Source: Clostridium fermenticellae (GTDB taxonomy: Bacteria; Bacillota; Clostridia; Clostridiales; Clostridiaceae). From it: a DNA stretch of 64,000 nucleotides. The notes below the pieces were generated by a model that did no database searches, had not been told where the DNA came from, and worked only from the letters and a program-made list of their open reading frames with translations. This document shows positions 3,578 through 59,760 of the stretch, piece by piece (the first letter of the stretch is position 1; the number at the start of each line of letters is the position of its first letter). Where the stretch lies: NCBI RefSeq assembly GCF_003600355.1, contig NZ_CP032416.1, forward strand, positions 2,562,183-2,626,182, in the 5' to 3' direction. A program made the translations under genes and the position numbers.

Positions 3578-3742
3578 TACTTAAAAGTCGAAATTTTATG
3601 GATACTTGAAAATTATGTACATTCAGAAGTTTAGCACTTAAAAAATTTTTAGGATGGTAGTCCTTTGAATTATAAAGTCTTATGAATATTTACAGTAGAA
3701 TTAACAGATTCCGATTTTTACTGGAAATTATACGGAAAAAAT

Positions 3743-3804
3743 TTGCATAATAAAAGCATCCTTTTTATAATGGTTTTGCTAAAAACTAAAAATAAAAGGA
3801 TGCT
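3743..3804 (+). promoter_or_regulatory. IS internal promoter and RBS-sequestering inverted repeat
   Basis: TTGCAT (3743-3748) and TATAAT (3766-3771) are 17 bases apart, placing transcription start near 3778. An 11-bp perfect inverted repeat has its left arm AGCATCCTTTT at 3755-3765, inside the promoter spacer, and its right arm AAAAGGATGCT at 3794-3804, which contains the transposase ribosome binding site. Transcripts from this promoter lack the left arm; transcripts entering from outside have both arms. The same arrangement occurs in copy 2. Confidence 0.75.
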
Positions 3805-3810
3805 GATAAA

Positions 3811-5063
3811 ATGAGTAAAAGTTATTTGAAACAGCTACTCACTTATATTAACAGGGTATATGATATAGGTGAAAAATCAATAGTTTAAAAAATAAAATAA
3901 TAAAATCTCCAGCAAAAGTTTCAACAATAGCTTTCGTAGTATTATTTGGATTCATGCTTCAAATAAGAAGTTTCAATAGATTAGAACATTGGATTGAAAA
4001 GAATAAATTTAAAAAGGTATTACCTAAAAATACTAAAATGCTACGCATTGACGCCGTTAGGCGTTTCTTGAATGATTTTGATCTTGATGGCTTAAAAAAT
4101 ATCAACAAGCACATAATAAAAACTACTGCGAAGAATAAAGTATTTAGAAATGGTACTATAGATGGTTTAAAGGTAGCTGCCATAGATGGTGTAGAACTAT
4201 TTGACAGTATTAAAAAATCTTGTAACAACTGCCTTACAAGGGTTGATAAAAATGGTATAACGCATCATTTTCACAGATCAGTAGTTTGTGCAATGGTTGG
4301 TTGTGATCCACATATTGTTTTAGATCAGGAAATGCTTGAACCCCAAAAAGATAGTTCAGGTAAAGATGAAGGAGAAATTACTGCCGGCAAACGTTTAATT
4401 AAAAAGCTGTATAAAAAATATCATCACTTTGCGGATATCATTGTAGCTGATGCTTTGTATTGTAATGCTACATGGATAAAAGAAGTACTCTCTATAGGAA
4501 TGAATGCTGTAGTTAGAGTAAAAGATGAACGTCTTCACATTGTAAAAGACGCATTAGCTTTATTTAAATGCCGTGAGGCAGATAAGAACTGGATTGTAAG
4601 AAAAAATACAAATATCTACACAAAGATTAAGGCATGGGAAGATGATAATTTTGAAATGTCTGATAAGGATATAAAAGTAAGGTTCTTGAGGTTTGTGGAA
4701 GAAATTCATACTGGAGACAGAATAGAGATTAAAGAAGGATGGATCATAACAACAGATAAATTTACATCAGTAGAAAGCCTGTGGAAGATAATGCATAAAA
4801 GATGGGACATTGAAAATAATATATTTCATCAACTGAAGACGGAATGGCATTTAGATCACTGTTTTCTTCATAGCCCTACGGGCGTAGAAACAGTTTTAAT
4901 GTTTATAATAATAGCATTTAATTTAATGCAGTTATACTTTTTTAGGTGTATAAGGGGTTTTAGAGAAAAGAATATGCTTCAAATGGATATTATTGAAGAT
5001 ATAAAAGATGAAAGATTTACTATAGAAGATAATTGGAATAACCCTATATTTGGAAAGACATAA
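3811..5063 (+). pseudogene. IS transposase, frameshifted in copy 1
   Basis: This would be the 417-residue DDE transposase found intact in copy 2. Here a run of six A is reduced to five at 3872-3876, so translation from ATG 3811 stops after about 25 residues. The remaining frame is open from 3954 (369 residues). The lost part is only the N terminus; the DDE-bearing core is intact, with VAAIDGVELFD, IIVADALYC and the glutamate in RWDIENNIFHQLK. The restarted protein may be inactive or may act on IS ends as a truncated product. Two further substitutions (N for K, P for S) distinguish it from copy 2. Confidence 0.88.
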
Positions 5064-5251
5064 TTCAAAATTAAAACTGGAAATTGATTATATAAATTTA
5101 TCGGGGTAAAGAGGTATTATAATTATTTTTTTGACCTAACGGTCTCCGTGCTTACCAGCTCTTTAAATAAATGTAATTGGATACAATTCCAGTAAAAATA
5201 AAATTTTTACTGGAATTTAGGTGCTAAATCTCTGATGTACATTAACTAATA

Positions 5252-58148: not shown

Positions 58149-59760
58149 CAGAGATTTAGCACCTAAATTCCAGTAAAAATTTTATTTTTACTGGAATTGT
58201 ATCCAATTACATTTATTTAAAGGGCTGGTAAGCCCGGAGACCGTTAGGTCGAAAAAATAATTATAATACCTCTTTACCCCGATAAATTTATATAATCAAT
58301 TTCCAGTTTTAATTTTGAATTATGTCTTTCCAAATATAGGGTTATTCCAATTATCTTCTATAGTAAATCTTTCATCTTTTATATCTTCAATAATATCCAT
58401 TTGAAGCATATTCTTTTCTCTAAAACCCCTTATACACCTAAAAAAGTATAACTGCATTAAATTAAATGCTATTATTATAAACATTAAAACTGTTTCTACG
58501 CCCGTAGGGCTATGAAGAAAACAGTGATCTAAATGCCATTCCGTCTTCAGTTGATGAAATATATTATTTTCAATGTCCCATCTTTTATGCATTATCTTCC
58601 ACAGGCTTTCTACTGATGTAAATTTATCTGTTGTTATGATCCATCCTTCTTTAATCTCTATTCTGTCTCCAGTATGAATTTCTTCCACAAACCTCAAGAA
58701 CCTTACTTTTATATCCTTATCAGACATTTCAAAATTATCATCTTCCCATGCCTTAATCTTTGTGTAGATATTTGTATTTTTTCTTACAATCCAGTTCTTA
58801 TCTGCCTCACGGCATTTAAATAAAGCTAATGCGTCTTTTACAATGTGAAGACGTTCATCTTTTACTCTAACTACAGCATTCATTCCTATAGAGAGTACTT
58901 CTTTTATCCATGTAGCATTACAATACAAAGCATCAGCTACAATGATATCCGCAAAGTGATGATATTTTTTATATAGCTTTTTAATTAAACGTTTGCCGGC
59001 AGTAATTTCTCCTTCATCTTTACCTGAACTATCTTTTTGGGATTCAAGCATTTCCTGATCTAAAACAATATGTGGATCACAACCAACCATTGCACAAACT
59101 ACTGATCTGTGAAAATGATGCGTTATACCTTTTTTATCAACCCTTGTAAGGCAGTTGTTACAAGATTTTTTAATACTGTCAAATAGTTCTACACCATCTA
59201 TGGCAGCTACCTTTAAACCATCTATAGTACCATTTCTAAATACTTTATTCTTCGCAGTAGTTTTTATTATGTGCTTGTTGATATTTTTTAAGCCATCAAG
59301 ATCAAAATCATTCAAGAAACGCCTAACGGCGTCAATGCGTAGCATTTTAGTATTTTTAGGTAATACCTTTTTAAATTTATTCTTTTCAATCCAATGTTCT
59401 AATCTATTGAAACTTCTTATTTGAAGCATGAATCCAAATAATACTACGAAAGCTATTGTTGAAACTTTTGCTGGAGATTTTATTATTTTATTTTTTAAAC
59501 TATTGATTTTTTCACCTATATCATATACCCTGTTAATATAAGTGAGTAGCTGTTTCAAATAACTTTTACTCATTTTATCAGCATCCTTTTATTTTTAGTT
59601 TTTAGCAAAACCATTATAAAAAGGATGCTTTTATTATGCAAATTTTTTCCGTATAATTTCCAGTAAAAATCGGAATCTATTAATTCTACTGTAAATATTC
59701 ATAAGACTTTATAATTCAAAGGACTACCGTCCTAAAAATTTTTTAAGTGCTAAACTTCTG
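58149..59760 (-). mobile_element. IS4-superfamily insertion sequence, copy 2 (1612 bp, intact)
   Basis: It has the same inverted ends as copy 1, CAGAGATTTAGCACCTAA at 58149 and CAGAAGTTTAGCACTTAA reversed at 59760. The target duplication ATTTTTAAA is present at 58140-58148 and 59761-59769. It is one base longer than copy 1, matching the deleted A there. It is oriented opposite to copy 1, inserted between secG and a hypothetical gene in an otherwise conserved region. Confidence 0.95.
58320..59573 (-). CDS. IS4-superfamily transposase, full length
   Basis: A 417-residue DDE transposase beginning MSKSYLKQLLTYINRVYDIG. Catalytic residues: Asp in VAAIDGVELFD, Asp in IIVADALYCNATW, Glu in KRWDIENNIFHQLK, followed by TEWHLDHCFLHSPTG. 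The N-terminal 45 residues are lost in copy 1. The start lies 7 bases after an AAAGGATG element sequestered in the 5' hairpin, so readthrough translation should be low. Being intact and nearly identical to copy 1, it is the likely source of recent transposition. Confidence 0.95.
   Translation of the reverse strand: MSKSYLKQLLTYINRVYDIGEKINSLKNKIIKSPAKVSTIAFVVLFGFMLQIRSFNRLEHWIEKNKFKKVLPKNTKMLRIDAVRRFLNDFDLDGLKNINKHIIKTTAKNKVFRNGTIDGLKVAAIDGVELFDSIKKSCNNCLTRVDKKGITHHFHRSVVCAMVGCDPHIVLDQEMLESQKDSSGKDEGEITAGKRLIKKLYKKYHHFADIIVADALYCNATWIKEVLSIGMNAVVRVKDERLHIVKDALALFKCREADKNWIVRKNTNIYTKIKAWEDDNFEMSDKDIKVRFLRFVEEIHTGDRIEIKEGWIITTDKFTSVESLWKIMHKRWDIENNIFHQLKTEWHLDHCFLHSPTGVETVLMFIIIAFNLMQLYFFRCIRGFREKNMLQMDIIEDIKDERFTIEDNWNNPIFGKT

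Follow-up and report, generated by a model that had tools for sequence, protein, structure and literature searches.

A hairpin spanning the transposase promoter as a probable IS10-like guard against read-through in a clostridial insertion sequence

Does the inverted repeat around the transposase promoter of this insertion sequence (IS) prevent transcripts that enter from neighboring genes from being translated into transposase? The window, meaning the whole 64-kb stretch of DNA analyzed here, contains two copies of a single IS, of which only copy B retains an intact transposase gene (table 1), copy A being frameshifted because one A is missing near 3890. Ten full copies, each of 1611 or 1612 bp, are present in the 2.82-Mb genome, nine with target duplications of 9 bp and one with a duplication of 8 bp. 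In six of these ten, a co-directional ORF ends upstream at a distance of at most 220 nt, and read-through from outside is thus a realistic exposure for the element.

The transposase matches DDE_Tnp_1 (PF01609, E 1e-12) and hence has the DDE type of catalytic domain that is listed for the IS4 family together with direct repeats of about 10 bp and a Y-(2)-R-(3)-E-(6)-K signature (PMC2266710). The ends of the element (CAGAAGTTT), its length of 1611-1612 bp and its 9-bp duplications also fit the description of the IS4Sa subgroup, namely ends of the form CA------T, repeats of 8-10 bp and a size of 1150-1750 bp (PMC2266710). The alignment gives M328-x2-R331-x3-E335-x7-K343 in place of the strict IS4 signature, and the NCBIfam IS4 models remain below their curated cut-offs (NF033592, 49.6 vs 115 bits); we therefore call the element IS4-like rather than a formal member of the IS4 family. 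Searches returned only remote matches in the plasmid collection, on three plasmids, and none in the phage collection, and a search by sequence returned no solved structure.

Table 1. Positions of the two IS copies and of their control features in the window
Feature	Position	Strand	Details
IS copy A	3624..5234	+	IS4-like DDE element, 1611 bp; transposase frameshifted
Ends of IS copy A			CAGAAGTTTAGCACTTAAA (left), CAGAGATTTAGCACCTAAA (right, as reverse complement); 9-bp flanking duplication ATGTACATT
Transposase promoter TTGCAT-17-TATAAT	3743..3771	+	From sequence and promoter scan; TATAAT invariant in relatives
Left hairpin arm AGCATCCTTTT	3755..3765	+	Inside promoter spacer, upstream of predicted start
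Predicted transcription start, G	3778	+	7 nt after -10; predicted from sequence and relatives
Right hairpin arm AAAAGGATGCT	3794..3804	+	Holds Shine-Dalgarno AAAGGA
Copy A transposase ORF	3811..5063	+	ATG 3811; frameshift near 3890; remaining ORF from 3954
Right-end palindrome AATTCCAGTAAAAAT AAA ATTTTTACTGGAATT	5185..5217	.	15-bp stem, perfect; z -5.8
IS copy B, same insertion sequence	between 58149 and about 59760	-	Same ends as copy A; flanked by TTTAAAAAT
Copy B transposase	58320..59573	-	Intact, 417 aa, DDE_Tnp_1 (PF01609)
Copy B promoter/hairpin/start region	59571..59632	-	Identical to copy A

The promoter of the transposase is composed of TTGCAT (3743-3748), a 17-nt spacer (3749-3765) and TATAAT (3766-3771). 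Its -35 element is weak, scoring three of six as TTGCAT and four of six as the alternative TTTGCA with an 18-nt spacer, the form in which the promoter scan returns 10/12. The arms of the repeat are exact 11-bp complements, and the Shine-Dalgarno in the right arm precedes the ATG by 10 nt. The sequence-only reading of this locus had described such complementary arms, the left one within the promoter and the right one containing the ribosome binding site, in both copies of the window; all of this is found as described, and the hairpin region is identical in copies A and B as well as in all ten full copies of the genome. No terminator-like site appeared in a scan of 3600-3900 for intrinsic terminators. 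An upstream mini-ORF whose ATG, at 3800, belongs to the right arm (MLIK; TGA overlapping the transposase ATG) was rejected, its frame not being kept in relatives.

We interpret the inverted repeat as an IS10-like read-through guard of the transposase gene, with a probability of about 0.83. Polymerase at the element's own promoter would start near 3778, downstream of the left arm, so that the Shine-Dalgarno of the native mRNA would be free. Transcripts running in from a flanking gene would have both arms, form the 11-bp stem and hide the Shine-Dalgarno, with poor translation as the expected outcome. Since the left arm lies in the spacer between -35 and -10, where base identity presumably matters little, it could change along with the Shine-Dalgarno arm. 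The reading is based on the layout of the repeat, on its conservation with compensatory changes and on the calculated accessibility of the ribosome binding site; the native start near 3778 and the effect on translation are predictions from sequence and modeling.

The 50 nt from 3755 to 3804 fold at -19.3 kcal/mol compared with -5.6 +/- 2.1 kcal/mol for shuffled sequences (z -6.6; 0/200 equally stable). Folding of both transcripts, which had been proposed as a check, gave the predicted difference: the longer read-through stretch 3740-3840 adopts the same hairpin and a transcript beginning at 3778 is unable to form it. The calculated cost of opening the ribosome binding site is 9.3 kcal/mol for the start at 3778 vs about 18-20 kcal/mol for read-through transcripts modeled with an upstream extension of 90 to 240 nt. 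Among relatives, the corresponding costs range from 3.3 to 8.2 kcal/mol for the predicted native transcripts and from 8.9 to 20.5 kcal/mol for read-through, which is the costlier of the two in all 17 relatives computed and also in IS10 (4.1 vs 8.9 to 12.5 kcal/mol). When the left arm alone is shuffled, the opening cost falls near the native value and the difference is abolished (8/8 elements). The energy of the duplex between the Shine-Dalgarno and upstream sequence ranks fifth among 224 genes drawn from ten 20-kb stretches of this genome plus the window, and at this rank the strength of pairing is notable without being proof. What distinguishes the hairpin, as judged from the sequences, is compensatory change across relatives and not pairing strength; a chance hairpin is ruled out by the shuffles together with these compensatory changes.

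To follow the repeat in other elements, relatives were gathered by transposase searches of genome collections, from close ones to those with about 26% identity. In 21 distinct relatives the TATAAT is invariant, an arm lies directly before it or within a few bases of it, and the complement of this arm covers the Shine-Dalgarno. Members of the lineage of the window are L024, L025, L030, L038, L039, L044-L047, L049, L052, L059, L070, L071, L076, L097, L098, L110 and L112; the same arrangement is seen in L031 and L034 (45% and 41% identity). The C. ljungdahlii copy, L024, has arms identical to those of the window element. In an alignment of 17 rows from the window lineage, 97.9% of the cells are paired vs 45-66% after a shift of the partner by one to three columns, and the covariation score is reached by 0/500 shuffles. 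Pair 5-58 of this alignment occurs as GC, AU and CG, pair 14-49 as UA, CG and UG; seven of the 11 pairs are invariant in the window lineage, hence uninformative either way. Because shuffle controls leave relatedness in, the comparison between lineages carries the most weight. Arms of different sequence cover the Shine-Dalgarno in L034 (GGCACCTTTC / GAAAG-AAGGTGCC), L070 (GGACCATCCTTTC / GAAAGGATGGTCC), L058 (AAACCTCATTT / AAATGAGGTTT), L102 (AGGATTCCC..CCTTTGT / ACAAAGGGGGAATCCT) and L105 (CTCCCGAGAGTAGC / GCTACTCTCGGGAG), as does the complement of the left arm ACCTCCTGG in L104. The transposase tree places elements with different arms in separate, well-supported groups, the deepest joins being weak. 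Loss of arm complementarity in related copies, named beforehand as the result that would count against the sequence-only reading, is not what we find: complementarity is kept with compensatory changes down to roughly 30% identity, and the conservation that it had suggested examining elsewhere extends to 10/10 genome copies and to the relatives. Exceptions are L040, a rearranged copy with no hairpin, L093 and L109, whose weak hairpins are equalled by 43 and 55 of 300 shuffles, respectively, and L060, in which both the transposase start and the hairpin call are ambiguous. (As a separate observation, two CRISPR-DR2 direct repeats at positions 1229-1326 of L070 adjoin the related IS, which perhaps inserted within a CRISPR array or next to one.)

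The same relatives bear on the position of the native start. Were the real start farther upstream, the hairpin would be present also in the native transcript and would act as a general brake on translation, whether constitutive, thermal or regulated by a factor. A second promoter-like sequence, TGGAAA-18-CATAAT, is indeed found by the scan at 3722-3751. It is weaker than TTGCAT-17-TATAAT, and its CATAAT varies among relatives (CAGAAT, CAAAAT or other), whereas all 22 distinct sequences of the lineage, E. plexicaudatum and Eisenbergiella among them, have an unchanged TATAAT after the left arm. The brake gains some ground from the most distant relatives, since no good -10 is recognized between the arms of L053/L054, L057/L058, L062, L072 and L102-L106, and such lineages still keep a hairpin of different sequence over the Shine-Dalgarno; in these lineages, lacking a good -10 after the left arm, the hairpin may belong to the native mRNA too. 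For the element of the window we consider a general brake quite unlikely.

An inverted repeat that overlaps a promoter could also serve as an operator in the DNA, recognized by a dimer of the transposase or of a host protein. The arms of the relatives have, however, the features of pairing RNA rather than those of a DNA palindrome: G-U pairs occur in L057 and L072, asymmetric bulges in L031, L034, L102 and L106, the length of the loop is variable, and the right arm sits on the Shine-Dalgarno in each lineage. We regard an operator as highly improbable.

The guard against read-through can be compared most directly with IS10 (Tn10), which, according to what Davis, Simons and Kleckner reportedly found in 1985, is protected from external promoters. 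In the IS10 sequence taken from an E. coli plasmid (L127), arms CACATCTTGT and ACAAGATGTG flank the known start of RNA-IN (bp 81) in the same layout, and on this ground we call the mechanism IS10-like. The left arm of IS10 lies upstream of the RNA-IN start and its right arm covers the start codon, hidden in the read-through transcript; the earlier proposal that the two elements follow the same logic thus holds on the real IS10 sequence, both in layout and in the shift of accessibility. The start predicted at 3778 falls in the same block as the RNA-IN start GGTTTCGCGAAAAA. The two elements differ in that IS10 hides the start codon whereas the window element hides a Shine-Dalgarno that precedes the ATG by 10 nt, and in that a few bases separate the IS10 arm from the -10 whereas the window arm abuts TATAAT. 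From the -10 on, 18 of 24 positions are identical between IS10 and the window (TCAAATGGTTTCGCGAAAAATCAA / TATAATGGTTTTGCTAAAAACTAA), compared with 8 to 18 for most other relatives; this block could reflect shared ancestry or coincidence.

A further difference is that the antisense RNA of IS10 is proven and its counterpart in the window is a candidate only. The repeat might also, or mainly, encode an RNA-OUT-like antisense stem running leftward from inside the transposase gene. The Rfam model RF00240 aligns at full length to 3806-3749 on the minus strand (25.9 bits, E 0.007 to 0.04), which, like the match to IS10 over the first 24 nt from the -10, would favor such an RNA. Yet this score is below the Rfam gathering score of 41, none of 15 relatives matches RF00240 at E up to 5, no convincing antisense promoter (pOUT) is recognized by eye, and codons 1-12 of the transposase lack marked synonymous conservation (0.71 vs 0.67 overall). 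We thus rejected a homologue of RNA-OUT on the grounds of the score, the negative relatives at the threshold used and the missing promoter, and consider the antisense stem unlikely; it is equally doubtful that the repeat doubles as a read-through guard and a source of RNA-OUT-like antisense RNA, as in IS10. If it did, a clostridial IS lineage distant from IS10 would share its two-layer control.

Other elements offer looser parallels. In IS50 (Tn5), an inverted repeat near the transposase start is held to lower read-through translation, as is proposed for the window element. Structures in the IS200 transposase mRNA are said to limit transposase synthesis (a report from 1999 ascribed to Beuzon et al.). 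RNA structure is common to both cases; that of IS200 belongs to the element's own transcript, whereas the native transcript of the window element is predicted to lack the left arm. Terminators at the 5' end of IS elements limit read-through (PMC2965389). They share the purpose of keeping the transposase silent in transcribed regions and, unlike the hairpin of the window, act on transcription. Literature searches of open-licence papers found no description of this hairpin for this IS.

Several other features of the element and of the genome were observed in the course of the analysis. One half of the palindrome near the right end, TTTTTACTGGAA, is found a second time close to the left end (around 3715-3726), with conservation in relatives; the palindrome at 5185-5217 and this half are perhaps a transposase-binding site. 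A small hairpin, AGGAT/AGGAC-loop-GTCCT, is located at 3650-3663, inward of the left end by about 27 nt; it appears as GGGC...GCCC in many relatives and is partly covarying, but not in all. Synonymous conservation among relatives peaks at codons 21-40 of the copy B transposase (0.77-0.91 vs 0.67 overall), where an overlapping signal could reside. An isolated 50-nt IS remnant (L138, G000:C1:484500-486500, minus strand, near 485503-485553) keeps the left arm and TTGCAT-17-TATAAT with 90% identity and has lost the right arm. A glycine riboswitch (RF00504, 66.8 bits) and an ORF resembling amino-acid permeases follow about 150 nt downstream, and the remnant is possibly a captured IS promoter. A MITE-like element of roughly 135 nt (L139, G000:C1:830800-832400, around 831544-831612) has both IS ends without transposase and lies upstream of another ORF.

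IS10 and IS50 are the usual examples of a transposase protected from host read-through. Judging from the sequences, the guard of the present element is a known kind of self-protection, extended broadly to a clostridial lineage, its layout recurring, with compensatory evolution, in a large family of elements from clostridia and other Bacillota. This suggests that an anti-Shine-Dalgarno arm embedded in the promoter spacer is a common design of DDE elements and no enterobacterial curiosity, and it offers a simple way to search for further guards, by looking for an arm between -35 and -10 whose complement lies on the Shine-Dalgarno.
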